Shown here: positions 2,061 through 32,541 of the stretch, piece by piece
Numbering within the stretch: position 1 is the first letter of the stretch
Layout: the number at the start of each line of letters is the position of its first letter
NCBI RefSeq assembly: GCF_001982615.1
Contig: NZ_MLCO01000188.1
Span: 1 to 44,997 of the forward strand
Origin: Teichococcus deserti
GTDB lineage: Bacteria > Pseudomonadota > Alphaproteobacteria > Acetobacterales > Acetobacteraceae
Reading direction: 5' to 3'
DNA: 44,997 nt
Program-made: the position numbers and the translations under genes
The notes under the pieces: model-generated
What the model saw: only the letters and a program-made list of their open reading frames with translations
The model's database searches: none
Told to the model about the DNA's origin: nothing

Positions 2061-2107
2061 AAGGCCAGGGGAATGAATTCCCCTGGACCCCTTCTTCTTT
2101 CTGTCAG
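2061..2107 (+). terminator. 3' repeat/terminator element, copy A (after pdxY)
   Basis: The hairpin has 10-bp arms (2065-2074 and 2077-2086) centred on GAATTC and is followed by the pyrimidine tail ACCCCTTCTTCTTTCTGTCAG. It begins 17 bp after the pdxY stop and is oriented with pdxY. It belongs to the dispersed family described in the findings. Homology to copy B continues to about 2188. No gene is seen in 2108-2249. Confidence 0.65.
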
Positions 2108-2249
2108 ACTGCCGTGTCCACGTGGCAACAGGACGTGAAACGGCCCCGCCACAGCGCGACCTTTCAGCGAGCGCCGTTTCGAGACCAGTGTTCCAACGTG
2201 AAACCCTGGTGTCGTAGCCATCGAAGCGCAGGTCACTTCATGGCCGGTG

Positions 2250-2318
2250 ACAAAAAAGAATGATGGGTTCGGACGAATACGTCCGAAGGGGGAAGAATTC
2301 ATTCTTCCCCCAACCTTC
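2250..2318 (-). terminator. 3' repeat/terminator element, copy G (double hairpin)
   Basis: Read on the minus strand from the stop of the small membrane protein: AAGGTT, then an 11-bp-arm hairpin GGGGGAAGAAT..ATTCTTCCCCC (2288-2311), then a second 8-bp hairpin (2268-2287), then CATTCTTTTTTGTC. It has the same architecture as the other copies, with an extra hairpin between the core and the T-tract. Confidence 0.6.
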
Positions 2319-2321
2319 AGT

Positions 2322-2723
2322 CTACTTCCCTGCCTTCAGAGCCTTCCTTCCCTTCAACCACTTCGCCGTCAGCCACAGGCTCAAGACAGCCCAGGCCAGG
2401 ACCAGAAGCGGGTGGAGGTAGATCGCCAGCAGCTTCATGAAGAGCATCGGGTTGATCAGCCCGGCCAGGAAGATGCCGATGGCGTAGCCGTTGACGATCT
2501 CGGCCACGTCTTCGCCCCAGAGCCAGCAATGGGTGAAGGTGCCGGCCTGCTGGCTGCATTCGGCCACCTTCGGCAGGGTCAGCAGCCCGACCAGGTTGCC
2601 CAGCAGCGGCAGCGCGAAGAGGATGATCAGCAGCAGCAGCGGCCCGCCCACCACCAGCAGGGTCCAGCCCAGGCGCCGGACCCGCGCCGGGCTGATGGGG
2701 GTCGGGTCGGGCGTGGCGGCCAT
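2322..2723 (-). CDS. Small three-helix membrane protein, function unknown
   Basis: The 133-aa protein has predicted membrane segments at about 20-48, 76-98 and 100-121, a short cytoplasmic-looking N-terminus rich in proline, and a lysine-rich C-terminal tail (KWLKGRKALKAGK). Two cysteines (AECSQQ and THCWLW) lie in the loop after the first helix and could form a disulfide. I do not recognise a domain. It resembles conserved hypothetical proteins. The ATG at 2723 is preferred over a GTG two codons upstream because AGGAG lies 5 nt before the ATG and overlaps that GTG. It is downstream of and co-oriented with a Bug receptor gene, with a 55-bp gap. Confidence 0.7.
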   Translation of the reverse strand: MAATPDPTPISPARVRRLGWTLLVVGGPLLLLIILFALPLLGNLVGLLTLPKVAECSQQAGTFTHCWLWGEDVAEIVNGYAIGIFLAGLINPMLFMKLLAIYLHPLLVLAWAVLSLWLTAKWLKGRKALKAGK

Positions 2724-2778
2724 GGGCACTCCTGGGCAGGAAAGACGAGGGCGGGGTGAGCTCCCCGCCCCTTCTTTC

Positions 2779-3774
2779 TTAATCCGCCGTGGCGCCGGAG
2801 GCTTTGACCAAGGGCACCCAGAGCGCCAGCTCCGCCTTCAAGAATGTGGCAAAATCGGCGGGCGAGCCCTTCTCGATCGGCGGCAGCTCCAGCTCGCGCA
2901 GCTTGCGGGCGGTCTCCGGCTCCTCCACCGCGGCGCGCACGGCGGCGTTCATCTTCTGCACGATCGGCGCCGGCGTGCCGGCGGGGGCGAAGACGCCGAA
3001 CCAGCTATAGGCGCGGTAATTGGGCAGGCCGGCCTGGGCGGCGGTGGGCACCTCGGGCATCAGGGTGGAATGCTCGTCGGTGGCGATGGCCAGGCAGCGC
3101 AGCGCGCCGGTCTTGTGGTAGGGCGCGATCAGCGCGGGGGTGTCGAAGCCGACCGCCACCTGGCCGGCCAGCAGGTCGGATAGCATCGGCGCGCTGCCGC
3201 GATAGGGGATGTGCTCGGCCTGCGCGCCAATGGCGTTGAGGAAACTGACGGCGGCGATATGCGCCGAGCCGCCGGCGCCGCCGGTGCCGTAGCTGTACTT
3301 GCCCGGATTGGCCTTCAGCAGCGCGATGAACTCCGCCAGCGTCGTCACGCCGAGCGAGGGATGCACGGTGATGCAGATCGGCACCAGCACGGTGGGAGCG
3401 ACGGCCACGAAGTCACGCTCCGGGTCGTAGGGCAGCCGCGCGCCGTAGAGGCCGACCGCCAGCACATGGGTGGAGATGGTGCCCATCAGGAAGGTGCTGC
3501 CGTCGGGCGCCGACTTGGCCACCGCGTCGGAGCCGACGGTGCCGCCGGCGCCGGCGCGGTTCTCGATGACGACGCTCTGGCCGAGGATCTCCGACATCTT
3601 CGGCGTGATCATGCGGGCCGAGACATCGGTGCTGCCGCCGGCGGCGAAGGGCACGATCATGCGGACCGGGCGGGTCGGCCAGGCGGCACCCTGCGCCCGG
3701 GCGCGGCTGCCGAGGCTGAGCGCGGGCAGCAGGGCAGGCGTCGCCAGGAGGCTGCGGCGGCGGAGAATCATCAT
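2779..3774 (-). CDS. Bug-family (TctC-like) tripartite tricarboxylate receptor
   Basis: The 331-aa protein is a periplasmic solute receptor of the Bug/TctC family, which binds carboxylates and related small molecules. It has a twin-arginine-like signal (RRRSLLATPALLPALSLGSRARAQ, cut after about residue 28). The mature part begins with WPTRPVRMIVPFAAGGSTDVSAR, the family's ligand-binding P-loop-like signature. ENRAGAGGTVGSDAVAK and IPYRGSAPMLSDLLAGQV follow at the usual places. No TctA or TctB membrane partner is nearby, so it is one of the many solo Bug receptors and its substrate cannot be predicted. It lies 65 bp downstream of an oligopeptide-type binding protein and may share its transcript. 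Confidence 0.9.
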   Translation of the reverse strand: MMILRRRSLLATPALLPALSLGSRARAQGAAWPTRPVRMIVPFAAGGSTDVSARMITPKMSEILGQSVVIENRAGAGGTVGSDAVAKSAPDGSTFLMGTISTHVLAVGLYGARLPYDPERDFVAVAPTVLVPICITVHPSLGVTTLAEFIALLKANPGKYSYGTGGAGGSAHIAAVSFLNAIGAQAEHIPYRGSAPMLSDLLAGQVAVGFDTPALIAPYHKTGALRCLAIATDEHSTLMPEVPTAAQAGLPNYRAYSWFGVFAPAGTPAPIVQKMNAAVRAAVEEPETARKLRELELPPIEKGSPADFATFLKAELALWVPLVKASGATAD

Positions 3775-3839
3775 CGTGATCCGATCAACAGGATCGCACG
3801 ATGCTGCGGTGCAAGAACGTCGCGGTCAACCGCGTCGGG

Positions 3840-5426
3840 TCAGACCCGCTTGACGTTCAGCGGCAGCACCATCCCGCGCCGCGGTGCCGAGAGCGACGAG
3901 CGCCAGGCGCTGTCGTTCAGGTACTGGCCGAGCGGGTAGTAGGGCAGATCCTGGAAGAACTGCCGCTGGATCTCGCGCCCCAGCTTCTGCTGCGCCGCCA
4001 GGTCGCCCGTGTCGAACCAGCGGTCGCGCAGCGCCTCCAGCTTCGGGCTGTCGGGCCAGCCGAACCAGGCGCGCTCGCCATTGGCGCGCAGCAGGGGGTG
4101 GCCGGCCGGCGTCGCCAGGTCCATGCCGCCGAACAGCACGACCAGCGCGCTCCAGCCGCCCTCGGCCACCGGGGCGCGGCTGGCGCGGCGCTGCAGGAAG
4201 CCGGCCCAGTCGCAGCTGACCGTCTCGGCGTTCAGCCCGACGCGCTGGAACAGGTCGGTGGCCACGGCGGTCAGGTTGCTGTTGTTCACCACGTCGGTCG
4301 GGTGCAGCACCGCGACCTTCTCGCCCTTGTAGCCGGCGGCGCGGACGGCACGCTGCGCGGCCTCGACGTCGCGCGGGCCGGTGATGGCCTCGAGCCCGGC
4401 TTCGGAGGCGATCGGGCTGCCTTCCGGGAAGCAGCCGACATTCTCCCGCCACAACTCGCGGTTGTCGCCCATGATGGCGGTCATGAAGTCGCCCTGGCGC
4501 AGCGCCGGCAGCAGCGCGCGGCGCAGCGCCGGATTGTCGAAGGGCGGGTGCAGCTGGTTGACCCGCAGCATGGCGACGGTGCCGCCCATGTCCAGCCGGT
4601 CCATGGTCAGGTTGCGGTCGTGCTTCAGCACCGGGCGCAGGTCGGGCGCCACCTGCTCCCACCAGTCGACCTGGCCGGATTGCAGCGCCTCGGCCGCGAC
4701 GGTCGCGTCAGGGGTGTGGCGGAGCTCCAGCCGGTCGAACAGCGCCAGCTTCGGGCCGGCGGTCAGGCTGACCGGGCCGCGCGGGGCGGGGCTGTAGTTC
4801 TCGAAGCGGCGATAGGCCACCAGGCTGCCCGGCGCCCGCTCCTCGGCGAGGTAGCGATAGGGGCCGCTGCCGACCACCTCGGTGAAGGCGCGCGACGGGT
4901 CCTGCCGGGCGAAGCGCTCGGGATAGATGAAGCAGGGATAGGTCGAGGCCTTGCCCAGCGCGTCCAGCATCAGCCCGAAGGGGCGCGACAGCCGCAGCAC
5001 GAAGCGGCGGTCGTCCAGCGCGCGGATGTCTTCCAATCGGGTCGCCAGGGTCTGGCCATGCAGGTCGCGCAGCATCCAGCGGCGGATCGAGGCCACGGCG
5101 TCCTGCGCCCGCACCGGCTCGCCATCATGGAAGCGCGGGCCCTGGCGGAGGGTGAAGGTCCAGAGGCGGCCATCCTCCTCGACGACATGGCCCTCGGCCA
5201 GCTGCGGCTGGGGCTTCAGCTCGGCATCCAGCCCGTAGAGCGTGTCCCAGCAGAGATGCCCGTGGTTGCGCGTCGCATAGGCGGTGGTGGCCATCGGGTC
5301 GAGCACGCGCAGGTCCGACTGCGGCACGAAGCGCAGCACCCGCCGGGCCTCGCCGGCCGCCAGGGCCGGGCGGGCCAGGCCGATGCCGAGGCCGGCGGCC
5401 CCGGCCAGGAAACTGCGACGCTGCAC
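3840..5426 (-). CDS. ABC transporter substrate-binding protein, family 5 (DppA/OppA type)
   Basis: The product (about 528 aa) is a periplasmic peptide/nickel-type binding protein (SBP_bac_5). The Tat-like leader is QRRSFLAGAAGLGIGLARPALA. The fold shows LRFVPQSDLRVLDPMATTAY, the SBP_bac_5 core FTLRQGPRFHDGEPVRAQDAV, VGSGPYR, and the closing YYPLGQYLND segment. I chose the GTG at 5426 because GGAG lies 6 nt upstream and it places the signal peptide directly at the N-terminus. An ATG at 5459 in the same frame has no clear ribosome site. No permease or ATPase genes adjoin it, so transport partners must lie elsewhere or it serves as a chemosensory binding protein; the next gene upstream (5601-7562) is a chemoreceptor. 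Family sure, ligand unknown. Confidence 0.88.
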   Translation of the reverse strand: MQRRSFLAGAAGLGIGLARPALAAGEARRVLRFVPQSDLRVLDPMATTAYATRNHGHLCWDTLYGLDAELKPQPQLAEGHVVEEDGRLWTFTLRQGPRFHDGEPVRAQDAVASIRRWMLRDLHGQTLATRLEDIRALDDRRFVLRLSRPFGLMLDALGKASTYPCFIYPERFARQDPSRAFTEVVGSGPYRYLAEERAPGSLVAYRRFENYSPAPRGPVSLTAGPKLALFDRLELRHTPDATVAAEALQSGQVDWWEQVAPDLRPVLKHDRNLTMDRLDMGGTVAMLRVNQLHPPFDNPALRRALLPALRQGDFMTAIMGDNRELWRENVGCFPEGSPIASEAGLEAITGPRDVEAAQRAVRAAGYKGEKVAVLHPTDVVNNSNLTAVATDLFQRVGLNAETVSCDWAGFLQRRASRAPVAEGGWSALVVLFGGMDLATPAGHPLLRANGERAWFGWPDSPKLEALRDRWFDTGDLAAQQKLGREIQRQFFQDLPYYPLGQYLNDSAWRSSLSAPRRGMVLPLNVKRV

Positions 5427-5600
5427 GGGGTGCTCCACACTCACGAAAGAGGGAGGCATTCTGCACATCGCGCGGCCGACATGAAGGGCCAGGGCGCCTG
5501 CAGGTCCAATGGCCGCGCCGCTATGGCCGCCGCGCCACATCTTCCCGCGGTCCGGCGGTGGTTTTCCGCGCTGCGGCGGACGTGGCTCCGCCCGGCGCCC

Positions 5601-7562
5601 TCAGGCCGCCCGCATCTGCGCCAGCAGCGCCTGCAGCTCGCTGCGCAGTGCGCCGCCCTGCTCGCCGAGATCCCGGCCCAGCCGGTCCAGCCCGGCCGCC
5701 GCCTCGGCGGCGCCGGCGGCGGCGCTGCTCACCCCCTCCACCTCCCGCGTCACGCGGGTGGTCCCGTCGGCAGCCTCCTGCACGTTGCGGGCGATCTCCT
5801 TGGTGGCGGCGCCCTGCTGCTCCACCGCGGCGGCGATGCTGCCGGCGATATGGTCGACCTCGGCGATCACCCCGGCGATGCCGCCGATGGCGCTGGCCGC
5901 CTGCTGCGCCGCCTGCTGCATGCCGGCGATCTGCGCGCTGATCTCCTCCGTCGCCTTCGCGGTCTGCGCGGCCAGGTTCTTCACCTCGGAGGCCACCACG
6001 GCAAAGCCCTTCCCCGCCTCCCCCGCCCGCGCCGCCTCGATGGTGGCGTTCAGCGCCAGCAGGTTGGTCTGGCCGGCGATGTCGCCGATCAGCTGCACCA
6101 CCTCGCCGATCCGCTCCGAGCTCGAGGACAATTGCCGCACCGTGCCATCGGCCGCCTCGCTGCGCTCCAGCGCACGGCGGGCGACGCTGGCGGCCTCGGC
6201 CACCTGGCGGGTGATCTCGGCGATGGCGGCGTTCAGCTCCTCGGCCGCGGCGGCCACCGTCTGCACGTTGCTCGAGGCCAGCTCCGCGCCCTGGGCCGCG
6301 CCGGCGCCGCGGCTGCCCACCGTCTCGATGCTGGCCAGCAGGGCGGTGGCGCTGCGCTGCAGCCGGGTGGCGCTCTGCGCCAGCTCCTCGCTGACGGCGC
6401 CGATCCGCGCCTCCACCTGCCCGGCCAGATCCAGCGTCGCCTGCCGCCGCTCGGCCTCGGCCTGCTGCCGCTGCCGCGCCTGGTCGGCCCGCATCGTCTC
6501 GGCCTCCGCCGTGCCCTGGCGCAGCACCTCCATCGCCTGGGCGACGGCGCCGATCTCGTCGCGCCGGGCGCGGCCCGGCACCTCCAGCGCGGTCTGCCCG
6601 TTGGCCAGCCGTCGCGCCGTCTCGGCCAGCGCCACCAGCGGCCGCGCCAGCCGCGCCGCCAGCCACAGCCCGAGCAGCAGCGCCATCAGCGCCGTGCCCG
6701 CGGTGATCAGCAGCGCGTCACGGTCGGTGCGGTCGCCGGCGGCCAGCCGCGCCTCGATGTTGATGCCATATTCGATCAGCCCGAGCGGCTGGCCGTCGAT
6801 GCCGCGCAGCGCCTCGGTCGCGACCCGCATCCGCGCGCCGCGCCAGGCCACCGTCTCCGCCTGCGCCGCCTGCAGCCCGGCCCGCAGCTGCGCCTCCGGC
6901 AGCAGCCCCTGCCCGCCGGTGGTCGAGCCGATGCGCGTCAGGCTGCCCGCCGCCAGCCGGTAGACCGCGACCTCGGCCCCGCTCAGCGCCTTCATCCGCT
7001 CCGCCAGGCTGTCGCCGATCGCCATGCCCAGATCGACCACGCCGACCACCCGGCCGCCCTCGGTCACCGGGGCCACGGCGAAGACGCTGACATTGTCCCG
7101 CCCCGGCTCCAGCCCGGTCACCAGCGCGGCGCGCGACAGCGCCTCCCGCACCGTGGTGCGGCGGTCGCGGTAGTTGTCGCCCGAGGCCGCCGGGTCATGC
7201 GCCCGCAGCATCACCGTGCCCTGGCCGTCGGCGAAGGTCAGGATCACCCGGCCGAAGCGCTGCGCCATGTCCTGGAACAGCGCCGCCGTCCCGGCCCGCA
7301 GCGCCGCCTTGTCGCCGTCGCGCACCGCCGCCGCCACCGCAGGGACCCGTGCCACCGCGCTGCCGATCGAGGCGGCCAGCCGCTCCTCCTCCGCCAGGGA
7401 CAGCATCAGGCTCTGCCGCAGCTGCACCATGCGCCGGGCCAGGTCCTGCTCCTCCGACGCGTCGCGCTGCAGTGCGCCGACCAGCGTCAGCAGCAGCGAC
7501 GCCCCCAGGCTCGCGCCCAGGATCGCCAGCACCATCCGCGCGCGGAGCGATTGAAAGGGCAT
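5601..7562 (-). CDS. Methyl-accepting chemotaxis protein with periplasmic Cache domain
   Basis: This 653-aa transmembrane chemoreceptor signals to CheA/CheW. Transmembrane helices lie at about 10-31 and 284-304. The roughly 250-residue periplasmic region between them looks like a dCache_3-type sensor ([46 protein letters not shown]). A HAMP domain follows (about 305-355, ending [16 protein letters not shown]), then the cytoplasmic coiled coil. The conserved hairpin tip is [24 protein letters not shown] with [16 protein letters not shown] see no C-terminal CheR-tethering pentapeptide; the end is ALLAQMRAA. No che genes are in the window, so this is an orphan receptor. Its ligand is unknown. 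Confidence 0.93.
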
Positions 7563-7618
7563 GTCGGGGATTCTTCCTTGTCAGAACAAGGAAGATAGGA
7601 AAAGCAGCTTAAGGAAAG

Positions 7619-7661
7619 CAGAAGAGCGGGGGAATTGGATTCCCCCGCGCCCCCTCATCCT
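7619..7661 (-). terminator. 3' repeat/terminator element, copy F
   Basis: A 10-bp-arm hairpin GCGGGGGAAT..ATTCCCCCGC (7626-7648) starts a few bases after the lipoprotein stop at 7664. On the minus strand it is followed by TCTTCTGCTTTCC. It is a more divergent member of the family, with the same hairpin core and orientation. Confidence 0.5.
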
Positions 7662-7663
7662 CG

Positions 7664-8266
7664 TCAGCGCAAAGGATCAGTGTCGCGCGCGCCGCCCCAG
7701 CCATCCACGCTGTCCAGCGCCGCGATCGCCTCCTGCGTGCGGCCGGTGGCGATCGCCGCCTCCGGCAGCGGGCCGGGCTGGCCCAGGCGCTGCAGGGTCA
7801 GGGCCGGGCCGGCCTGGAACATGGATGCGGGCAGCGCGGCCGCCGTGTCGCCCTTGGTCTCGATGACGCGGGCGGCATTCGCCAGGGCGGGGATCACCTG
7901 CTCGGGCAGCGCGGTGGCCGAGATGCCGATGGCCTGGCGCACCTCGCGCACCGCGCCGCGCAGCGACATCGACAGGCCCGGCGGCAGCGCGGCGAAGCGG
8001 GCATCGGTGGTCAGCACCTGCGCCAGATATTCCAGCCGGGCGGCGGCGCGGGCGGTCTCGGCAGGGCGGCCGTCCAGCCCGGCGCCCTGGTTGTCGAAGG
8101 CGGCGGCGGTCAGCCGGGCCGAGTTGCGCACCGGGTCCTCGGGGCCCTGCACCAGCTCCAGCGGCAGCTCGACGCGCGGCCGCGGGGTGCGCAGCTCGGC
8201 GCAGCCGGGCAGCAGCAGCGCCCCCGCCAAGAGCGCCGGAAGGACCGAGATTCGGGCAAGACGCAT
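7664..8266 (-). CDS. Predicted outer-membrane lipoprotein, paralogue of its upstream neighbour
   Basis: The 200-aa protein has a lipoprotein signal peptide ending in a good lipobox (LLLPGC, cysteine near residue 22). The rest is alanine-rich and probably helical, with no recognised enzymatic motif. Its middle (ARLEYLAQVL, GAVREVRQAIGI, LPEQVIPALANAARV) matches the adjacent lipoprotein (QLEYLAVEL, ARSEVRTWLGI, PPQQVIDAMAAAA), so the two arose by tandem duplication. The ATG at 8266 has GGAG at 8-nt spacing; the frame is open upstream but lacks a signal peptide there. It is last in a gamma-carbonic anhydrase / lipoprotein / lipoprotein unit, 59 bp after the previous gene. Function unknown. Confidence 0.8.
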   Translation of the reverse strand: MRLARISVLPALLAGALLLPGCAELRTPRPRVELPLELVQGPEDPVRNSARLTAAAFDNQGAGLDGRPAETARAAARLEYLAQVLTTDARFAALPPGLSMSLRGAVREVRQAIGISATALPEQVIPALANAARVIETKGDTAAALPASMFQAGPALTLQRLGQPGPLPEAAIATGRTQEAIAALDSVDGWGGARDTDPLR

Positions 8267-8325
8267 GGCGGGCACTCCGTCGGGGTTCCCCCCCATTCTG
8301 CCGCAGCCCCGCCGCTTCGCCAAAC

Positions 8326-9453: not shown

Positions 9454-9505
9454 AGAAATAGATGAGGGGTCCGGGGAGAATACTTTCTCCCCGGCTTGCT
9501 TGCGT
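9454..9505 (-). terminator. 3' repeat/terminator element, copy E (after argC)
   Basis: Directly after the argC stop, the minus strand reads GCAAGCAAGCC, then a 10-bp-arm hairpin CCGGGGAGAA..TTCTCCCCGG (9471-9494), then ACCCCTCATCTATTTCTATTC. It belongs to the dispersed family, with a pyrimidine-rich tail rather than a pure T-run. Confidence 0.6.
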
Positions 9506-11072: not shown

Positions 11073-11074
11073 TT

Positions 11075-12404: not shown

Positions 12405-12441
12405 GCCCGCTGGCTTGCAGCACCGCGGCGCTTCAGGAAAA

Positions 12442-12464
12442 TTCATTCCCCTAAGCCGAATGAA
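12442..12464. promoter_or_regulatory. Candidate LysR-type operator between exporter and regulator
   Basis: A perfect 6-bp inverted repeat, TTCATT (12442-12447) and AATGAA (12459-12464), with an 11-bp spacer lies 15 bp before the regulator start and 38 bp from the exporter start. It fits the T-N11-A layout of LysR recognition sites. It is AT-rich compared with its surroundings. Confidence 0.45.
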
Positions 12465-16136: not shown

Positions 16137-17879
16137 GTGCGCAGCGACGACGCCAAGGTCACCCGCCTCAAGGTGCAGGACGAGGATTTCCTCGTCGCCT
16201 CGATGATCGAGCGCTGCCCGAGGACGATGATGATCCGCGAGCTGCTGCAGAACGCGCTGGAGGCGGCGGCGACCGCGCCCGCCGGCCAGCGGCGGGTCGA
16301 GTTCTCGGCGCTGCCGGTGGAGGGCGCGCGCAAGCTGGCGATCTGGAACAGCGGCCGCGGCCTGACCGGGCCGGAGCTGTTCGCCATGTGCGACATCGCC
16401 GCCTCGATCCGCAAGGAGACCGGGCTCGACCGCAATTTCGGCATGGGGGCGAAGGTGGCGGCGCTGCCCTCCAACCCGCGGGGCCTGCGCTACCGCTCGG
16501 CGCATCAAGGGGCCGTGCAGGAGGTGGTGATCGGCAGGTTCGGCGGCGTCTATGGCCGGCTGCGCCGCCCCGGGCCGGACGGGTCGCCCACCGAGGTCAT
16601 CCCGGCGACAGAGGCGGCGCGCGCCGAAGGCCGCGACCCGGTTCCCGACTGGACCGAGGCGGTGCTGCTCGGCCAGGCACCGGCGCAGGACACCACGGCC
16701 GATCCCTATCTGGGCCAGCCCCGCGTCTCGCCGCGCTGGCTGCCGCACACCATCACCCACCGCTTCTTCCGCTTCCCCGACGGAATCGAAGTCGTGCTGC
16801 AGCCGGGCGTGGCCGGCAACAAGGCGCCGGTCGCGCTGCAGAGCCTGGCGGCGCGGCTGGCCGCCCTGACCCAGGAGGCGGGCGCCGGCTACGAGGCGGT
16901 GCGGCTGCCGGACGGCACGGTGCTGCACTACGCCTTCGACCCCGAGGCCAGCCTGGCCGAGGCGCGCAAGAGCCTGGGCGCGGTGGTGCATCGCGACGAG
17001 ATCTACGGCCTGCTCTGGGCCGCCGCCTGGCGGCGCGAGGCGCCGAGCTTCGGCATCCCCTTCCTGTCGCGCCACGTCACCCTGCTGGTCGAGCTGCCGG
17101 AGACCTATCCGGTGCAGCCCGAGGCTTACCGCGAATTCCTGCGCTATCGCGGCGGCAGCCAGGCGCAGGTGAAGCTGCTCGACTTCGCCGGGCTGCTGGC
17201 GAAGCACCTGCCGCGCTGGCTGTCGAAGAAGCTGGCCGAGGCGCAGCCCGAGGCGCTCTATGCCGAGGAAGCCCGGCAGACCATGCAGGAGCTGCTGGAA
17301 CGGCTAGAGGTGGCGAGGATGCGGCCGCGCGGGCAACCGGTCGTGGCTGCCGCCGCCCCGGCCGCGCCGGCGTCGAAGCCGTCCGCTCCGTCAGCGACGC
17401 CGGCCGCGGCGCGCGCGGCGACCGAGGCCGCCTCGCCGCCAGGTCCGCCGCCAGGGCCGGCCTTCGAGGTGCCGCCGGCGCTGGTGCTGCTGCGCGATGC
17501 GCAGGAGATCGCCGATCGCGATCTGACCGAGCGGGCCGCCGCTTACTACGCCGAGACGCACCAGCTGCATGTGAACCTGGCCTATCCGGCCGTGGCGCTG
17601 CTGGCGGAGCGTCTTCGCGCCCTGGCGCCGCCGGAGGCCGAGCCCGAGGTCGTGGCCGAGGCCGCCCAGCTGGTGGCCGAGCGGGCGATGGTGCTGCGGC
17701 TGGTGCGCGCCCTGGCCCACGGGCTGGCGAAGCGCGGCCAGAAGGCCTGGCGCGACGCCCAGGTGAAGCATGTGCTGTCGCCGGAGGGGCTGACGCTGGC
17801 CGCCGACGACAACGAGACGGGCTGGCTGGATTCCGAGCAGGCGATGCGCACCGCCTTGCTGATGGCGCCTGCCAACTGA
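16137..17879 (+). CDS. Stand-alone GHKL (Hsp90/MORC/MutL-like) ATPase of unknown role
   Basis: The 580-aa protein has an N-terminal GHKL ATP-binding fold. The N-box is MIRELLQNALEAA (Glu35, Asn39), the G1 box is WNSGRGL (about 70-76), and the G2 box is RNFGMGAKVAAL (about 99-110) with the lid lysine. The usual G1 aspartate that contacts adenine is Asn71. A middle beta region (about 110-390) is followed by an Ala/Pro-rich linker (about 395-440) and a helical C-terminal domain (about 440-580; AAAYYAETHQLHVNLAYPAVALL). No membrane segment, kinase H-box or endonuclease motif is visible. The GTG start is supported by AAAGGAG at 5-nt spacing. The neighbour upstream is a DNA-damage SRAP gene. I do not recognise the full architecture. 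Confidence 0.8.
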   Translation: MRSDDAKVTRLKVQDEDFLVASMIERCPRTMMIRELLQNALEAAATAPAGQRRVEFSALPVEGARKLAIWNSGRGLTGPELFAMCDIAASIRKETGLDRNFGMGAKVAALPSNPRGLRYRSAHQGAVQEVVIGRFGGVYGRLRRPGPDGSPTEVIPATEAARAEGRDPVPDWTEAVLLGQAPAQDTTADPYLGQPRVSPRWLPHTITHRFFRFPDGIEVVLQPGVAGNKAPVALQSLAARLAALTQEAGAGYEAVRLPDGTVLHYAFDPEASLAEARKSLGAVVHRDEIYGLLWAAAWRREAPSFGIPFLSRHVTLLVELPETYPVQPEAYREFLRYRGGSQAQVKLLDFAGLLAKHLPRWLSKKLAEAQPEALYAEEARQTMQELLERLEVARMRPRGQPVVAAAAPAAPASKPSAPSATPAAARAATEAASPPGPPPGPAFEVPPALVLLRDAQEIADRDLTERAAAYYAETHQLHVNLAYPAVALLAERLRALAPPEAEPEVVAEAAQLVAERAMVLRLVRALAHGLAKRGQKAWRDAQVKHVLSPEGLTLAADDNETGWLDSEQAMRTALLMAPAN

Positions 17880-17924
17880 CAAAAATAGAAGGGGGCTCGG
17901 GGGAATACTGTCCCCCGGCCTTGC
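17880..17924 (-). terminator. 3' repeat/terminator element, copy D
   Basis: From the stop of the second Bug gene the minus strand reads GTAAGCAAGGC, the hairpin CGGGGGA..TCCCCCG (17898-17917), then AGCCCCCTTCTATTTTTGTCAG. It lies in the 45-bp convergent gap after the GHKL ATPase gene and may stop transcripts from both sides. Confidence 0.65.
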
Positions 17925-18926
17925 TTACTCTATCCTGAGCCCGGTCTTCTCGACGACACCTTTGAACCTGGCGAATTCCTCCGCCAGGAAGGCCTTGGTG
18001 GTGTCCGGCGTGCTGTCGTCGCGGGGATCGGTGCCGCTGGTGGAGAGGCGCTCGCGCACGGCGGCCTCGCGCAGCGCCCCGTTGGCGGCGCGGTTGAGGA
18101 GGGCAACGACCTCGGCCGGCGTGTCCTTGGGCGCGACCAGCGCGGTCCAGGTGGAGAGCTCGTATTCCTTGACCCCGGCCTCGGCGAGGGTCGGGACGTT
18201 GGGGAAGCTGCGGTCGCGGGTGGTGGTGGTGACGGCCAGGAGCGTCAGCTGGCCATCGCGGATCTGGCCGACGATCGAGGCGATCTGGTCGACGGCGAAG
18301 AGCACCTCCTGCTTCAGCAGCGCCTCCGCCACGGAGCTGCCGCCGCGATAGGGGATGTGGTTGGCCGGCGCGTCGGCCAGCTTGCTGAACAGCGCCGAGG
18401 CCAGATGCGAGACGCCACCGACGCCGGAGCTGGCATAGCCGTGCTTGCCGCCATCGGCCCGCAGCCTCTGCACGAGCTCGGGGATCGACTTGATGCCGGA
18501 GGCGGCCGGGACCACCAGGCCGAGGGCGCTGGTGCCGACGATGGCGATCGGGGAAAAGTCCTCGGCCGGGTTGTAGCGGGCGACGGCAGGCTGCGCGGCG
18601 GGCGCCACCGCCAGGGTCGAGGCGGAGCCGACCAGCAGCGTGTAGCCGTCCGGCCGCGCCCGGCGGACATATTCGGCGCCCAGCGCCGAGCCGGCGCCGG
18701 GCTTGTTCTCCACCACCACGCGGCCCTGCGGGCCCATCAGCGGACCCATGCGGTCGGCCAGCACGCGGCCGGCCAGATCCGTGGCGCCGGCCGGGGCGAA
18801 GGGCACGACGATGGTGATGGTGCGGTCGGGAAATTCGGCAGCGCGGCCGGGCTTCGCCAGCAGCAGAGCGGGTGCGGCGAGCCAGGCGCGGCGGGACACG
18901 GGATGTCGCAACAGGGGATTGCGCAT
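17925..18926 (-). CDS. Bug-family (TctC-like) receptor of the GntR/IlvD locus
   Basis: The 333-aa periplasmic solute receptor has a twin-arginine-like signal (SRRAWLAAPALLLAKPGRAAE). It then shows the Bug signatures FPDRTITIVVPFAPAGATDLAGRVLAD, VVENKPGAGSALGAEYV, HIPYRGGSSVAEALL and FPNVPTLAEAGV. Length is normal. The ATG at 18926 follows GGAGGAAG at 5-nt spacing; the open frame further upstream is the antisense of the regulator gene. It diverges from a GntR regulator followed by an IlvD/Edd dehydratase, across an intergenic palindrome. This suggests it binds a sugar acid or related hydroxy acid consumed by that dehydratase. No TctAB genes are adjacent. Confidence 0.9.
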   Translation of the reverse strand: MRNPLLRHPVSRRAWLAAPALLLAKPGRAAEFPDRTITIVVPFAPAGATDLAGRVLADRMGPLMGPQGRVVVENKPGAGSALGAEYVRRARPDGYTLLVGSASTLAVAPAAQPAVARYNPAEDFSPIAIVGTSALGLVVPAASGIKSIPELVQRLRADGGKHGYASSGVGGVSHLASALFSKLADAPANHIPYRGGSSVAEALLKQEVLFAVDQIASIVGQIRDGQLTLLAVTTTTRDRSFPNVPTLAEAGVKEYELSTWTALVAPKDTPAEVVALLNRAANGALREAAVRERLSTSGTDPRDDSTPDTTKAFLAEEFARFKGVVEKTGLRIE

Positions 18927-18999
18927 GGGGACTTCCTCCACTGGTTCTTTTTCTGCGCGCCAGTTTCGAAGGCGGAACGCCACCGAGTCAACCGGGAGT

Positions 19000-25318: not shown

Positions 25319-25319
25319 G

Positions 25320-25640: not shown

Positions 25641-25664
25641 GGCGGCCTCCTTGCAGAAGAACCG

Positions 25665-25678: not shown

Positions 25679-25819
25679 ACTTCGACCCTGATGGGGGGAG
25701 GACGTGGCCTCGCCCCTCCCTCTCAGCATGCGGGGGGTTCAGGGGTCAAGCCGCGTCCCCCGTTGCCTTTCGCGGGGCGCCTGTCAGGAATACCGCGGAG
25801 AAACGGCGAGGCGCGGATC

Positions 25820-27076: not shown

Positions 27077-27098
27077 AAAAGGGGCCTCGCGGCCCCTT
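27076..27098 (-). terminator. Terminator between amidohydrolase and DUF882 gene
   Basis: An 8-bp stem AAGGGGCC / GGCCCCTT (27079-27086 with 27091-27098), loop TCGC, is followed on the minus strand by TTTTTC. It ends the minus-strand DUF882 transcript 5 bp past its stop and may serve the plus-strand gene too. Confidence 0.75.
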
Positions 27099-27102
27099 CC
27101 CG

Positions 27103-27702: not shown

Positions 27703-29426
27703 CACTCGATCGTCGTACCCGGTGTGGCGAGGGGGGCCGCCTGGGCGCGGGCCGAGGTGCCCTCGGCGCGCACGGGCGTGGGGTTGGCGGCCGGCGTCGC
27801 GGCGCGGGCCGGCTGCGGCGTGCGGGCGGCGTCGGGGCGGGACGTGCTGCGCGCCACCGGCGTGTTGCCGCTGGCGGGCGCGGCGGGCGCCATCGCCGGC
27901 ACCGGGCGGCGCTGGTCGAGCAGGCGCTGATAGGCCGCGTCCAGCCCGTAGATGTCCTGGTGGATACGGACCCTGCCCTGCTCCACCACGACGGAACTAT
28001 AGGCCAGCCGCACCGGGATGGTGCGCGGCAGGCCGACGAAGCTGGTCTGCCGGCTGTCCAGCGCGCGCTGTGCCCGCGCCCGGTCCCAGCCGGGGACGCC
28101 GTCCAGCACCAGCTCCAGCAGCTCCATCGGCTGGCTCAGCCGGATGCAGCCGGAGGACAGCGCGCGGTCGGCGCGGCCGAAGAGATGCCGGTCCGGCGTG
28201 TCGTGCAGATAGATGTCGTCGCCATTCGGCATGACGAATTTCAGCCGCCCCAGCGCGCTGACGTCGCTGGCATCCTGCCGGACGTAGTAAGGAAAATTGC
28301 GGGCGTTCAGGCTGGACCAGTCGATGGTGGTCGGATCGACCTCCACCCGCTCGCCGCCGACGGTGGTGAACAGGCGAAAGCCCTTCTCCATCATGGCGCG
28401 CGGGTCGCGGCGGAACTTCGGCAGCAGGTCCTCGCGCGCATTGCGCTCGGGCACGCCCCAAGGCGGGTTGAACTGCACCGCCGTCATGCGCACGGCCAGC
28501 GGCGGGGTGGCGCGGGCCTGCTTGCCCACCACCACCGCCATGCTCATGGTCTGGCGGCTGCCTTCCATCACCCGCAGGCGGAATTCGGGGATATTGACCT
28601 CGATGCGGCGGCCCGGGGCCGGGGCGCCCTGGCCGCGGCGCAGGTCCATCGCCACGCGGATCTGGCCCAGCCAGGCCTCGGCCGGGCGGTTCAGCAGGCG
28701 CTGGGTGGCCGGCCCGACGCGGCCATCCGACTCCAGCGCGTTCGCCATCTGCCAGCGGCGCACCGCGGCCTCCAGCGGCGCGTCGTAGAGCGGCGCCTGC
28801 GCCATCTCCGGCGCCGCGGCGATGGCGGCGGCGAGCTCCCGGTCGTCGGCGGCGATGCGGCCGCGCAGCGCGGGGATGCGGAGGGCATCCTCCATGCCGG
28901 GGTCCAGCGTGCCGACGCCGGCGGGAATGCTGGGCCAGCCGCCGGCTTCGACGCGGGCGCGGGCGGCCTGCAGCGCCAGGCGCAGCGCCGGCATGTCGGC
29001 CGGCAGCAGGGCGGCGCGCTCGATCACCTCGGCCGGCTCGGCGCTGCCATAGAGGGCGGCCTGCCACTGCGCGACCGGCTGGGCGGTCAGGTCGCGGCGG
29101 ATGTCGGGACGGCCTGCCACCTCCTGCACCCGGCCCTGCAGCAGGTCGGTCATCGCCGCCATCGCCGAGGCGTAGAGCGCGGCGACATAGCCGTTCGGAT
29201 CGGAAGCGGCCCGGGCATCCTCGGGGATATCGTAGTAGCGCGGCGTCAGCCCGTCCGCATCCAGCGCCCGCAGCCGGGCGGCCAGCCGCAGCAGCGCCTC
29301 CCAGTTCGGCTGGGCGGTCGTCGCCGGCACCGGCGCCGCGGCCAGGGCCCGCGAGCTCAGAGCTGGCAGGCCCAGCGCCGGCAGGCCAAGGGCGATCACC
29401 AAAGCGGACAGGTCTCTGCGGCGCAT
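27702..29426 (-). CDS. L,D-transpeptidase of YcbB/LdtD type
   Basis: The 574-aa periplasmic enzyme would form 3-3 peptidoglycan crosslinks or attach proteins to the wall. It has an N-terminal signal (RRRDLSALVIALGLPALGLPALSSRALA), a helical scaffold (about 40-200), a peptidoglycan-binding motif (AAVRRWQMANALESDGRVGPATQRLLN, about 230-255) and the catalytic YkuD domain (about 290-460). The catalytic cysteine sits in RALSSGCIRLSQP, with the histidine in YLHDTPDRHLFG. A low-complexity Ala/Pro/Thr tail of about 70 residues follows the catalytic domain, unlike E. coli LdtD. The start has GGAGG 4 nt upstream. It is coupled to the downstream DUF882 gene. Confidence 0.92.
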   Translation of the reverse strand: MRRRDLSALVIALGLPALGLPALSSRALAAAPVPATTAQPNWEALLRLAARLRALDADGLTPRYYDIPEDARAASDPNGYVAALYASAMAAMTDLLQGRVQEVAGRPDIRRDLTAQPVAQWQAALYGSAEPAEVIERAALLPADMPALRLALQAARARVEAGGWPSIPAGVGTLDPGMEDALRIPALRGRIAADDRELAAAIAAAPEMAQAPLYDAPLEAAVRRWQMANALESDGRVGPATQRLLNRPAEAWLGQIRVAMDLRRGQGAPAPGRRIEVNIPEFRLRVMEGSRQTMSMAVVVGKQARATPPLAVRMTAVQFNPPWGVPERNAREDLLPKFRRDPRAMMEKGFRLFTTVGGERVEVDPTTIDWSSLNARNFPYYVRQDASDVSALGRLKFVMPNGDDIYLHDTPDRHLFGRADRALSSGCIRLSQPMELLELVLDGVPGWDRARAQRALDSRQTSFVGLPRTIPVRLAYSSVVVEQGRVRIHQDIYGLDAAYQRLLDQRRPVPAMAPAAPASGNTPVARSTSRPDAARTPQPARAATPAANPTPVRAEGTSARAQAAPLATPGTTIE

Positions 29427-29570
29427 GACGCCTCCATAACAGGGGGCCGTCCGCCCCCGCCAGTCTTGATACACCGTTGTTACGCGCCGGTGGACAGGCT
29501 TGAAAGGGTTAACGTTGCCTTTCTGAGGCGGCCAACGGAGGCTTGACGAGAGGCTCATGCTGCGGCGCAC

Positions 29571-29602
29571 AAAAAAGCCCGGCCGGCGGAACCGGCCGGG
29601 CT
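29571..29602 (-). terminator. Intrinsic terminator after yceD-like gene
   Basis: An 11-bp perfect stem (29576-29586 with 29592-29602), loop CGGAA, is followed on the minus strand by six T residues (29571-29576). It lies 5 bp past the stop of the YceD-type gene and separates it from the L,D-transpeptidase. Confidence 0.9.
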
Positions 29603-29607
29603 GACGC

Positions 29608-30147
29608 CTACGGGTCCTTCCGGCCACCCTTCAGCACGGCGAAGGGATTGGGGCGGGCCGGCGCCTCCGCTTCGGGCGCCTCCTCATCCTCCTCGAGATC
29701 GGCCTCCGGCAGCACGGCGCCGGGGGCGCGCGGATACGGATCGAGCGCCAGCGAGAGCTGCTCGGCCAGCGGCTCGCCCAGCTCGATGCTGCCGCGCTCG
29801 GTCTCGATCTCGTCCGGACCCTCCGGATCGTCGGCCGGCAGGCGCCCGGGCGGCAGGATGCGCAGGTCGACCGCCTCCTCCACCGCCTGCTCCACCGGCT
29901 CCAGCGTGACCACGCAGCTCTGCACCACATGCGCCAACAGCCGGCCGCGGCAGCGGATGGTGCCGCCGCGCTCATGCTCCAGCTGCAGCTCGACGGCGAA
30001 GTCGTGGATCGCCGGGATGTCGAAGCGCCGGGCCAGGGCCGCGCATTCGGCGGCCGTCGCGGTCCAGGCCTGGCGGCGCCCCTCGGGGCCGATGGCGCCC
30101 CAGGGCAGGGTGCGGGAGAATTCCAGGACCGGATCAGGGGTCGTCAT
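29608..30147 (-). CDS. YceD/DUF177-family protein (23S rRNA accumulation protein)
   Basis: The 179-aa cytoplasmic protein belongs to DUF177, implicated in 23S rRNA processing or stability. Family signature: GRLLAHVVQSCVVTLEPVEQAVEEAVDLRILP, with conserved Cys and the following acidic stretch. A PFAVLKGGRK end is typical. The C-terminal region holds an extra acidic run (EADLEEDEEAPEAEAP). In most bacteria rpmF, plsX and fabH follow; here a terminator comes directly after. Its ATG overlaps the stop of the bc1 chaperone gene by 4 bp, the usual alphaproteobacterial arrangement. Confidence 0.9.
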   Translation of the reverse strand: MTTPDPVLEFSRTLPWGAIGPEGRRQAWTATAAECAALARRFDIPAIHDFAVELQLEHERGGTIRCRGRLLAHVVQSCVVTLEPVEQAVEEAVDLRILPPGRLPADDPEGPDEIETERGSIELGEPLAEQLSLALDPYPRAPGAVLPEADLEEDEEAPEAEAPARPNPFAVLKGGRKDP

Positions 30148-30698
30148 GACGAAGCGTCCTCGGGGGCGGCAAAGCGGGCCTCGCCAGCCAGGAATTGGGG
30201 CATCCCCTGCTGCGCCAGCAGGGCATCCGTGGAAAAGGCCAGCGCCGCCAGGGCGACCGGCTCGGCCGCCCCCTCCGGCAGCGCGCCGCGCCAGACGTTG
30301 CGGGCCAGGGCATCGGCCAGCGCCGCGCGGTCGCCCGCCGCGAGCGGCGCCTCATAGGCCTGGGCGCGGCCGTGGAACGCCTCCCACATGGTCTTCACCC
30401 GGCGGGCGATGGACATGTCGCCCACCCCCATCTCCCGCAGGTTGAAATCCATGTCGGCGAACATGGCGTCGAACACCGCCTGCGCCAGGGCCGCGCCGCG
30501 CGCATCCGGGTCGCGGTGCAGCCGGCGGATCAGCAGCGCCACATGCAGCCCGATCAGGTCGAAGCGCCCGTCGAGCGTGTCGGGCACGCCCAGCCGCGCG
30601 AAGAAGGCCGGGTGGCGGGCGGCGCGCACGGCGGCGCCATAAAGCTCGAAGCCCGTCCGTTCATGCGGCCGGCGGCGGAACAGGCCGAACAAGGCCAT
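30144..30698 (-). CDS. Ubiquinol-cytochrome c reductase chaperone (Cbp3/UQCC1-like)
   Basis: The 184-aa protein belongs to the Ubiq_cyt_C_chap family, homologous to mitochondrial Cbp3, which helps cytochrome b maturation. Family pattern: FELYGAAVRAARHPAFFARLGVPDTLDGRFDLIGLHVALLIRRL, then FDAMFADMDFNLREMGVGDMSIARRVKTMWEAFHGRAQAY. It starts with a short amphipathic FGLFRRRPHERTG. The ATG at 30698 is used because the longer open frame upstream runs through the promoter region shared with bamE. First in a two-gene unit with yceD. Function in this organism is inferred from the family. Confidence 0.9.
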   Translation of the reverse strand: MALFGLFRRRPHERTGFELYGAAVRAARHPAFFARLGVPDTLDGRFDLIGLHVALLIRRLHRDPDARGAALAQAVFDAMFADMDFNLREMGVGDMSIARRVKTMWEAFHGRAQAYEAPLAAGDRAALADALARNVWRGALPEGAAEPVALAALAFSTDALLAQQGMPQFLAGEARFAAPEDASS

Positions 30699-30846
30699 GG
30701 TCGGAACGGCTCCCCAATGGCGGCGCATGCAGGCGCCGGTTGACCCCGGTGCGGGGCGGTGGCAATCGGGCATGCAGATGGACTGCATCCCCGCGCCGGT
30801 CAATCCGACGGCGCGCGGGGCCTGGCCAAGAGGAATCAGGGCGCCC

Positions 30847-31383
30847 GTGACCAGCGACACCAACCGAGCCAAGCTGAACCGCCGGCCGACGCGCAGCCGC
30901 GCCCGGGCGGCGCTGCTCGCCCTCGCCCTGGCGCTGCCCGCCGCCGGCTGCTCGGTCTTCGAGGCGCCGCCGGTGCAGCGCGGCAACAAGGCCGATGCCG
31001 ACCTGCTCGCCCAGCTCTCGCCCGGCGTGCAGACCCAGGCCGACGTGCAGGCGCTGCTGGGCCCGCCCAGCGCCACCGGCACCTTCGACCGCAACCACTG
31101 GTACTATATCAGCTCGACCACCCGCCTGCGCCCCGGCAGCCACGGCGCGGTCGAGAACCAGCGCGTCGTGGTCATGACCTTCGACGACGGCGGCACCCTG
31201 CGCCAGGTGCGCGAGCTCGGCGAGGGCGACATGCGGACCGATGTCGGCATGGTCGACCGCACCACGCCGGTGCCGGGCACCGAGCGCACCGTGCTGCAGG
31301 CCCTGTTCGGCAATATCGGCCGCGTCGGCGCCGGCGGGCTCACCGCCCAGGATGCCGGTCCGGGCGGCGGTCCGGGGCGGTAA
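30847..31383 (+). CDS. bamE: Outer membrane assembly lipoprotein BamE (SmpA/OmlA)
   Basis: The 178-aa lipoprotein is a subunit of the beta-barrel assembly machinery. The lipobox is LPAAGC with the lipidated cysteine at about 39. The BamE domain follows: LAQLSPGVQTQADVQALLGPPSATGTFDRNHWYYIS, then RVVVMTFDDGGTLRQVRELGEGD. The C-terminus (PGTERTVLQALFGNIGRVGAGG) is the alphaproteobacterial extension. I propose the GTG at 30847, which gives a slightly long basic n-region; a ribosome site is not obvious, and an upstream ATG is possible. It diverges from the bc1 chaperone gene across about 150 bp and ends inside a 3' repeat element. Confidence 0.9.
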   Translation: MTSDTNRAKLNRRPTRSRARAALLALALALPAAGCSVFEAPPVQRGNKADADLLAQLSPGVQTQADVQALLGPPSATGTFDRNHWYYISSTTRLRPGSHGAVENQRVVVMTFDDGGTLRQVRELGEGDMRTDVGMVDRTTPVPGTERTVLQALFGNIGRVGAGGLTAQDAGPGGGPGR

Positions 31384-31427
31384 AGGCCAGGGAATGAATT
31401 CCCCTGGACCCCTTCTTTTTCCTGTCT
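31383..31427 (+). terminator. 3' repeat/terminator element, copy B (after bamE)
   Basis: The hairpin CCAGGGAAT..ATTCCCCTGG (31387-31407, one base bulged) is followed by ACCCCTTCTTTTTCCTGTC. It starts at the bamE stop codon. Homology with copy A continues without gaps to about 31508, next to the thiL stop. No gene is seen in 31428-31505. Confidence 0.65.
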
Positions 31428-31505
31428 GAATGCCGTGCCCAGGTAAGGACTGCACCCGAGCCAGCCCAGCCCCAGCGCGACCTTCCAGGGCGCGCTGTTT
31501 TCATA

Positions 31506-32474
31506 TCAGAAGTGGCTCCAGCCACCCGGCCCGGCCGGTCGCTCGACACCCGCCGCGTCCACCACCACGACCGCCGGCTCGCCCGCGGCGAAGCGGCCGA
31601 TGCGGGTGACCGCGACACCAGCCTCGAGGGCGCGCGCCTCGATGGCGGACCCGGCCTCCGGCGGCGCGGCGAACAGCAGCTCGTAATCGTCGCCGCCGGT
31701 GATCAGCTTCTGCCGGAGCGACACATCCGCCGCGACCAGCGCCGTGGCAGGGGCCGACAGCGGCACGGCCGCAGCCTCGATCCGCGCGGTGCAACCGCTA
31801 GCGCGGCAGAGATGGCCGAGGTCCTGCAGCAACCCGTCCGACACGTCCATCGCGGCGCGCGCCAGCCCGACCAGGCCGAGGCCCAGCGCCAGGCGCGGCT
31901 GCGGCAGCCGGTAGCGGTCGGCGAGATAGGCGTCCATCGGCAGCCGCCCCTGCAGCACGGCCAGGCCCAGATAGCCGTCGCCGATGCTGCCCGAGACCCA
32001 GATCTCGTCGCCCGGCCGGGCACCACCGCGCGTCAGCGCGGTGCCGGGGGCGACATGGCCCAGGATGGTCAGCGACAGGTGGATGGGGCCGGGCGTCGAG
32101 ACGGTGTCGCCGCCCAGCACGCCGAGGCCGAATTCCTGCTGGTCCAGCGCCAGGCCGGCGGCGAAGGCTGCAATCCAGGCGTCGGGGGTGCCGCGCGGCA
32201 GGCCGACGGTCAGGAGATAGGCAAGCGGGGTGGCGCCCATGGCGGCCAGGTCGGACAGGTTGCTGCGCAGCAGCTTGCGCCCGATGGTCTCGGCCGGGTC
32301 GTCCAGCAGGAAATGCACGCCCGCGACCATGGCGTCGGCCGCGAGGACCAGCTCACGCCCTGGGGGCGGCGTCAGCACCGCGGCGTCGTCAGTCAGCCCG
32401 AGGGAGCCTGGGGCGGCGAGTGGCGCGAAATGTCGTGCGATGAGGGAGAATTCGGCAGGAAGCGTCATGGCCAT
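31506..32474 (-). CDS. thiL: Thiamine-monophosphate kinase
   Basis: The 322-aa enzyme phosphorylates thiamine monophosphate to the active pyrophosphate cofactor. The PurM/ThiL fold is seen in LTDDAAVLTPPPGRELVLAADAMVAGVHFL (metal-binding aspartates), LRSNLSDLAAMGATPLAYLL, LGGDTVSTPGPIHLS, and AAMDVSDGLLQDLGHLC, and ends with GDDYELLFAAPPE. Length is normal. Two possible ATGs lie at 32474 and 32468; AAGGA precedes both. It follows nusB on the same strand, as in most alphaproteobacteria, but a repeat element with terminator character separates them. Confidence 0.95.
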   Translation of the reverse strand: MAMTLPAEFSLIARHFAPLAAPGSLGLTDDAAVLTPPPGRELVLAADAMVAGVHFLLDDPAETIGRKLLRSNLSDLAAMGATPLAYLLTVGLPRGTPDAWIAAFAAGLALDQQEFGLGVLGGDTVSTPGPIHLSLTILGHVAPGTALTRGGARPGDEIWVSGSIGDGYLGLAVLQGRLPMDAYLADRYRLPQPRLALGLGLVGLARAAMDVSDGLLQDLGHLCRASGCTARIEAAAVPLSAPATALVAADVSLRQKLITGGDDYELLFAAPPEAGSAIEARALEAGVAVTRIGRFAAGEPAVVVVDAAGVERPAGPGGWSHF

Positions 32475-32490
32475 CGCTTCCTTGCCCTTT

Positions 32491-32541
32491 CTGACAGAAA
32501 AAAGAAGGGGGTCTGGGGGAATTCATTCCCCCAGCCTTGCT
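32491..32541 (-). terminator. 3' repeat/terminator element, copy C (nusB-thiL gap)
   Basis: Minus strand from the nusB stop: GCAAGG, the 10-bp-arm hairpin CTGGGGGAAT..ATTCCCCCAG (32513-32534), then ACCCCCTTCTTTTTTCTGTCAG. This is the cleanest copy. It lies inside an otherwise continuous gene row, so thiL needs its own promoter or read-through. Confidence 0.75.

Follow-up and report, generated by a model that had tools for sequence, protein, structure and literature searches.

Why should the hairpins that follow genes along one stretch of an alphaproteobacterial genome share so much of their sequence? The stretch in question, referred to here as the window, comprises 44,997 nucleotides (nt) of contig NZ_MLCO01000188.1 from Teichococcus deserti (RefSeq assembly GCF_001982615.1; positions 1 to 44,997 of the forward strand), in which a first-pass annotation, made from the sequence alone, had picked out seven intergenic hairpins as a dispersed, sequence-conserved family, each within about 20 base pairs (bp) of a stop codon and each oriented with the gene upstream, among them genes that it named pdxY, argC, bamE and nusB. 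We propose, with a probability that we would put at roughly 0.6, that these elements are the 3'-end ‘punctuation’ of Pseudoroseomonas and its near kin, working as intrinsic terminators, and that their potential to form a triple helix (‘triplex’) is under selection; termination and triplex are the parts of this proposal that we infer.

A unit begins with a GC-rich hairpin, whose purine arm leads through a 4-nt loop into the pyrimidine arm; a linker of 1-4 nt, a pyrimidine-rich third run and a T-rich stretch follow in that order. Units are found either singly or as inverted pairs that flank a ‘body’ of ~150 bp, the pair then filling the gap between two convergent genes. Purine arm, pyrimidine arm and third run stand in a three-way relation, in which the third run complements the purine arm in parallel, that is, mirrors the pyrimidine arm; base pairing would instead call for the antiparallel complement. 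After GGGGAA comes CCCCTT, after GGGAGAA comes CCCTCTT, and after GGGGGAA either CCCCCTT or CCCCCAT; GGAGGGAGAA goes with CCTCCCTCAT, GGAGAGAA with CCTCTCAT and GGGGGAAGAA with CCCCCATCATT, and in other Pseudoroseomonas species stems such as GGGGGAGAA are followed by CCCCCTCTT or CCCCCACTT. The tail had previously been described as simply the most variable part of the element, a description that does not hold for its first 6-10 letters, which track the stem. We regard this parallel relation between stem and third run as a new result.

Among 264 aligned units, and with the table starting at the third letter of the third run, C stands opposite G in 661 of 708 cells, and A is faced by T in 428, A in 103, C in 33 and G in 10 of 574, with A making up only 1.6% of the six letters that come after the third run. 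These units derive from 410 hairpins lying after stop codons, of which 282 passed a loop filter (a 4-nt loop ending in A, other than TTCA, TTCC, TTCT, TACT or TTTA) and 264 had a CC within 7 nt; the code is matched at 0.85 or better by 234 of the 264, and by 14 of 20 distinct tracts. When each tract is represented by one unit and the third runs are redealt, the mean match is 0.747 against 0.632 after shuffling, with none of 2000 paired draws reaching the observed value, and 0.807 against 0.668 (largest shuffle 0.766) if A is also allowed opposite A. The length of the G run equals that of the second C run in 216 of 242 cases, compared with a shuffle mean of 119 (286 matches have a G run; the 44 without a second C run within reach were omitted, and some of these are opposite-strand readings).

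Scored at a match of 0.85 or better, with readings of both strands pooled such that roughly half are of the other strand and act as a control, parallel matches, antiparallel matches and the shuffled-order mean come, respectively, to 83, 14 and 28.9 of 216 in the T. deserti genome; 83, 13 and 30.8 of 232 among named relatives; 20, 0 and 3.3 of 56 in a further set of loci showing other stems; 45, 1 and 9.3 of 124 in genome G005; 15, 4 and 4.0 of 44 in G014; 5, 0 and 1.1 of 22 in G010; 14, 2 and 2.8 of 32 in G001; 2, 0 and 0.7 of 4 in G003; and 12, 3 and 2.9 of 32 in other genera. Across 150 kilobases (kb) of E. coli, which gave very few readings, 0 of the 4 purine-arm hairpins has a parallel third run.

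The same parallel relation is found in a second, independent and unrelated repeat family (‘class 2’) of the same bacteria. Its hairpins occur at several kinds of junction. Each has a CGYYG loop and a purine arm; beyond a short linker of purines comes the third run, which leads into GCC and not into a T run, and the tracts vary widely (GAGAGGGG, GAGGGGGA, GGGAAGG, GGGGAGG and GGAGG, among others). Scoring the 23 of 28 such hairpins with a purine linker of 1-2 nt, which give 16 unique pairs, the third run follows the tract with a mean match of 0.848 against 0.640 when shuffled (largest 0.766; 0 of 5000); two of the 23 fail (0 of 5 and 2 of 6 letters). Examples lie at L033 (15790, read on the - strand), L052 (17741, -), L166:9733, L211:14567 and L183:13077, and a second, similar module often comes after the GCC.

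Could the elements be ordinary intrinsic terminators and nothing else, such that hairpin and T tract suffice, and the second C run is owed to a few founders and to pairing with an upstream AGG? The stem itself is kept by compensatory change, two pairs outside the core being Watson-Crick in 312 and 302 of 323 copies, against 113 and 182 expected were the positions independent, and T makes up 74% of the 6 nt after the third run. At 2057 and 17880, RNAfold draws the opening CC of the run into the stem and so adds two pairs to it, the letters of pair 4 outside the core are GC in 175 of 323, most copies derive from a few founder types (e.g. CCCCTTC and CCCCCATC), and at two orthologous ends a lower-stem pair has changed and the third run has not, all as this simpler account would have it. 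The third run nonetheless tracks the stem from its third letter onward, the tract-level shuffles do not reproduce the match, and the GGAGGGAGAA and GGAGAGAA tracts are followed by a mirror of the second arm, which Watson-Crick pairing does not require. Class 2 shares the relation and, as its diverse tracts are tracked with no T run to follow, neither a peculiarity of terminators nor descent from a single founder is a likely source of the rule. We consider ordinary terminators an unlikely explanation on their own.

As to position, gene contexts rest on our own gene caller, trained on third-position GC, and not on annotation, and were taken from a 770-kb sample comprising 40 stretches of the T. 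deserti genome plus the window; as most of these stretches come from contigs known to hold a copy, densities are biased upward, and contexts less so. Within this sample, none of 110 profile-match centres lies more than 40 nt inside a called coding sequence, and units are carried by 43 of 113 convergent, 26 of 467 tandem and 2 of 107 divergent junctions (Fisher p 1.4e-19), with 26 of 32 pairs sitting between convergent genes. Of the 105 matches at E<1e-5, 101 have called genes on both sides, and in 81 of these a called gene 3' end faces the hairpin, at a median distance of 10 bp from the stop codon. Several single units between convergent genes have a CTGTCAG tail that includes the stop codon of the opposite gene (TCA). 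The sequence before the stem, mostly AAGGC or CAGGC as read by eye over the 105 matches, has an A content of 48% in single units and 29% in pairs; A-rich sequence before the stem amounts to a T-rich run on the other strand, and single units may thus act in both directions, with pairs dividing the work between their two ends.

The family is large. With GGGGAATGAATTCCCC as the core, there are 230 exact matches in the T. deserti genome (6.25 Mb in 597 contigs) and 304 with up to one mismatch, and none for the reversed pattern at one mismatch; these numbers, together with the 81 of 101 facing ends and the junction statistics, bear out the earlier description of a dispersed, sequence-conserved family at gene ends, neither a mere handful of copies nor random orientation having been found. 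The analysis relied upon a sequence profile of the hairpin (nhmmer) and direct counts of pairs. The profile gives 105 matches at E<1e-5 in the 770-kb sample, and none at E<=1 on the reversed sequence; the matches fall into 32 inward-facing pairs, 245-248 bp long in 18 cases (range 168-264 bp), and 41 single units. A DNA search of the genome with window positions 2055-2320 returned 86 matches at 40 scored places, 40 being the number scored out of 211 first-look candidates, and copy counts were therefore taken from the pattern searches. Elsewhere, the pattern is matched at 64 loci at least in named relatives, all Pseudoroseomonas or Roseomonas among the matches listed; the exact core occurs in 16 of 17 genomes of the genus (0 to 246 sites per genome), in 9 of 200 genomes of the family (including T. 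deserti and two others of the genus) and in 1 of 289 genomes of the class, namely T. deserti itself. Rfam has no match above its gathering scores in the window or in L166, L211, L054 and L214, and a lax search at one class-2 place gave only matches far below them.

Returning to the window, all seven hairpins are present (Table 1), and all lie within ~20 bp of a called stop codon, as had been claimed. They are not, however, seven equivalent members of a family. A single repeat of 258 bp has the sites at 2061-2107 and 2250-2318 as its inverted ends, and the others are single or partial copies; the copies at 2250, 7619 and 9454 are divergent and weak by profile score (E 0.005, 0.02 and 0.03), with the remaining four sites at E<1e-6. 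Alignment of 30 copies from the genome shows a left hairpin and tail reading inward, a body of ~150 bp with a hairpin of its own and, on the right, an inverted version of the left-hand hairpin and tail. It is this composite of ~250 bp, along with its parallel, covarying third strand, that the first-pass annotation missed. Orientation with the upstream gene holds for six of the seven, the exception being 7619-7661, where the third run is on the + strand and both called neighbours are on the - strand. At 9454-9505 the stem is a variant and the third run differs along with it, and the partial copy at 31383 shares ~120 bp of the full-element body, with similarity extending to about 31509. Six of eight window folds have z < -2, the exceptions being 7612-7665 (+, z -1.6) and 31381 (z -1.1). 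Allowing two mismatches, the core has six matches at four window places, against 0.01 in shuffles; the outlier among the four, a degenerate half core at 12436-12451 (GGGGAATGAATTTTCC), is possibly a decayed copy.

Table 1. Copies of the element, and their parts, in the window.
Feature	Position	Strand	Details
Full element, left end	2061-2107	+	stem CCAGGGGAA (2065-2073) / loop TGAA / TTCCCCTGG (2078-2086)
Left end, downstream part		+	linker A, third run CCCCTT (2088-2093), then CTTCTTTCTG; nhmmer E 6e-20
Full element, body	2108-2249	+	contains ACTGCCGTGTCCACGTGG and GGCCGGTGA; homologous across the 30 aligned copies
Full element, right end (inverted)	2250-2318	-	stem GGGGGAAGAA (2311-2302) / TTCTTCCCCC (2297-2288); nhmmer E 0.005; fold z -4.2
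Right end, downstream part		-	inserted linker hairpin (2287-2268), third run CCCATCAT (2267-2260), then TTCTTTTTT
Weak single copy	7619-7661	+	third run CCCCCTCAT on + strand, opposite to both called neighbour genes; E 0.023
Single copy, variant tract	9454-9505	-	GGGGAGAA (9492-9485), loop AGTA, third run CCCCTCAT (9469-9462); E 0.026
Single copy	17880-17924	-	between convergent genes 16137-17879 (+) and 17925-18941 (-); tail TGTCAG holds stop codon of + gene
Partial copy, left end	31383-31427	+	between convergent genes 30847-31383 (+) and 31506-32378 (-)
Single copy	32491-32541	-	GGGGGAA / CCCCCTT; after gene 32542-33057 (-)

Several variations on this anatomy were seen. An extra hairpin (e.g. 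CGCAAACGTACACGTTTGCG) is inserted between the pyrimidine arm and the third run at window positions 2268-2287 and at L131, L044:4099, L065:3824, L067:4543, L069:7691 and L070:7324. A purine-rich unit like AGAGAAGRCAGG, sometimes present twice, lies between stop codon and hairpin in the flanks of pairs (L031:7718, L036:13509, L042:5895), and two exact words of this unit do not occur outside elements in the 770-kb sample. The inward-facing ends at L066:13646 and L066:14364 are separated by 718 bp. Finally, a subfamily with an AGTA loop and the tail TCATCTATTT (L214:19581, from another genus; the window copy at 9454; L139; L146) has three different tracts, each with a matching third run.

How, then, did the elements come to be where they are? 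Junctions were compared with those of a sister genome, Roseomonas sp. 18066. At one orthologous end, stem and third run have changed together (GGGGGAA/CCCCCATC versus GGGGGAAGAA/CCCCCATCATT), a co-change that could also come from replacement of the whole end by another subfamily; at three ends T and A are swapped at the letter opposite the first A, with no change to C or G there. The hairpin and third run of the unit at 32491 recur unchanged in the sister genome, and the 12 more distant relatives with aligned flanks have no matching hairpin. The full element of the window is present in the sister genome without its left hairpin (as read at L217), and at one place (L253:15011 versus L040) the sister has a pair where T. 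deserti has a single unit. Relatives that had been picked by motif agree on the presence of full elements, and are biased in that respect.

A selfish repeat, similar to a miniature inverted-repeat transposable element (MITE) or a bacterial interspersed mosaic element (BIME), whose inverted hairpin ends serve as transposase sites and whose terminator role is incidental, is one answer, and one that we think doubtful as the principal explanation. MITE features are there, in the form of terminal inverted repeats and many homologous, non-coding copies: bodies of ~150 bp are homologous at many loci, exact cores number between 0 and 246 among species of one genus, and sister single units at L250:3494 and L253:3695 are absent from the corresponding places in T. 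deserti, as are the G014 pairs at two places. Set against this, where sister stretches had been taken without regard to the motif, the full elements that they cover, two in number, both sit at orthologous places, and the position ~10 bp from a stop codon and at convergent junctions is unlike random insertion. Moreover, G005 has paired ends with other stems and bodies at two junctions, and P. cervicalis shares the stems but not the body at one junction, and has a single hairpin in place of a pair at another. The profile of the Y1 transposase (PF01797), the only one covered by our transposase search, has no match at E<=0.001 in the T. deserti genome, and matches 5 of 14 control genomes. The REP-like reading suggested earlier is thus not supported in the sense of repetitive extragenic palindromes (REP) linked to REP-associated tyrosine transposases (RAYT); the other half of that suggestion, a repeat that spreads, fares better, as homology of the bodies between loci means that the full element spread by copying, likely as a unit. 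Full elements look older than single units, which turn over faster.

We consider it very unlikely that the third run reflects a ‘slipped’ hairpin, in which the G run pairs alternately with the first or second C run and so shifts the hairpin beside the T tract: the equal lengths of G run and second C run are in its favour, but slippage needs an antiparallel copy of the second arm, and asymmetric tracts carry the mirror instead (83 versus 14 of 216 in T. deserti; 45 versus 1 of 124 in G005), on which Watson-Crick slippage fails. DNA-uptake-signal terminators, as in Neisseria and Pasteurellaceae, where sequence-conserved complementary pairs form terminators according to PMC1852404, are a more improbable reading still. 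Four half-motif words do exceed their reversals outside elements (10 versus 1, 3 versus 0, 7 versus 0 and 16 versus 0), but 3 to 16 half motifs in 770 kb falls well short of uptake signals, which number 1000 or more in a genome.

A number of observations weigh against our proposal of terminators with a selected triplex-forming potential. Six of the 20 tracts, each seen once or twice, fail the code; the largest single value among the tract-level shuffles (0.747) equals the observed mean, yet no paired draw reached its own observed value; and, the copies being related, the cell counts are not independent events. If the loop filter is dropped, the signal over the 410 hairpins after stops is weaker, in the same direction (C opposite G at 0.71, T opposite A at 0.49), the comparison values being 0.49 and 0.30 for the other strand (330 hairpins) and 0.44 and 0.21 inside genes (48). 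Among orthologous ends there are two third-run changes opposite G, and the copy at L113 has lost its third run and kept its hairpin. The T run begins 5-6 nt past the stem, often interrupted by C, and the third run opens with two C that can pair with the upstream AGG, which would account for these letters in an ordinary way. Orientation, claimed earlier to be uniform, is not so: 20 of 101 matches lack a facing called 3' end. Lastly, the related elements of E. coli are reported, in PMC4666352, to have shown neither terminator activity nor an in vivo footprint.

On balance we still favour triplex-coded terminators, and offer the following model. The RNA hairpin and its U-rich tail would stop transcription, as we think the units probably do; the third run, whose parallel covariation with the stem is plain and which is very probably under selection, is most likely kept because with it the stem could fold into an intrastrand triple helix. 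In a DNA version, this would be a purine-motif triplex of the complementary strand (G.G-C, A.A-T, T.A-T), which best fits the letters of the third run and should need no acid pH, purine-motif triplexes being stable at neutral pH. In an RNA version, a pyrimidine-motif triplex would form in the transcript (U.A-U, C+.G-C), at the price of a protonated C for each G-C pair. The allowed letters and the chemistry favour DNA, and the fixed orientation and T tract favour RNA; as among unique pairs A is faced by A (24 of 134) no more often than by C (26), the argument between them is only suggestive. Either triplex might strengthen polymerase arrest or protect the 3' end. That a triplex does form in the cell is possible, at odds somewhat short of even, and it is more tentatively still that we suggest the wider picture, in which the genus and some of its kin use triple-helix-forming terminators at hundreds of genes, two unrelated families have converged on a three-stranded design, and the triplex is the selected function. 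The purine-motif code used here is as given in PMC4666352.

The value of these elements lies in a change of the stem being matched, across several species and both repeat families, by a change of the third run in the parallel direction expected from triplex geometry: evidence that comes from evolution itself. Potential intrastrand triplexes of bacteria have been listed by the hundred thousand, with one folded in vitro and a link drawn to genome instability, and PMC4666352 supports neither a role in gene expression nor a structure in vivo; the tie to gene ends now provides a definite role that can be put to the test. Accounts of terminators with no place for a third strand may, it suggests, overlook some of what marks a gene end in these bacteria. 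Literature on Roseomonas repeats, intrastrand triplexes, terminators and mirror repeats, covered through titles and the openings of abstracts and with most subscription journals outside its scope, describes neither the family nor a covarying third strand at gene ends.

Among known systems, intrinsic (Rho-independent) terminators likewise have a GC-rich hairpin and a T-rich run just after genes, and are enriched at convergent ends; the elements here differ in being sequence-conserved in hundreds of copies and in having a stem-tracking third run between stem and T tract. REP and BIME elements with RAYT are, similarly, extragenic palindromes, single or in inverted pairs and in hundreds of copies; there, a GTAG-type tetranucleotide precedes the stem, whereas here AAGGC or CAGGC mostly does, and there is no match to the Y1 transposase in the T. 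deserti genome. Uptake-signal terminators (Kingsford et al. 2007, PMC1852404) are also sequence-conserved and repeated genome-wide, but the half motifs of our elements are not abundant elsewhere in the 770-kb sample. Closest of all are the BoxC/PIT/TM elements of E. coli and others (Hoyne and Maher 2000, 2002, as relayed in Holder et al. 2015, PMC4666352), which are intergenic, multi-copy, GC-rich motifs of three runs able to form an intrastrand triplex; in five cases from E. coli, two of the types lie side by side as an inverted pair, and pairs are found here too. In the same source, the E. coli elements are reported to have no strand bias and no fixed distance to genes, to lie more often upstream of genes, and to have no terminator activity; those of Pseudoroseomonas lie ~10 bp after the stop codon, are mostly gene-oriented, carry a T-rich tail and, as pairs, fill convergent gaps. 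The strand order differs as well: the sense strand here runs purine, pyrimidine, third pyrimidine, and E. coli TM class II, as set out there, runs pyrimidine, purine, reverse-Hoogsteen purine, with the complement of our elements (third purine, purine, pyrimidine) corresponding to class III/class I under the definitions quoted from PMC4666352. What the two systems share is the arrangement of three runs and the triplex code that links them.

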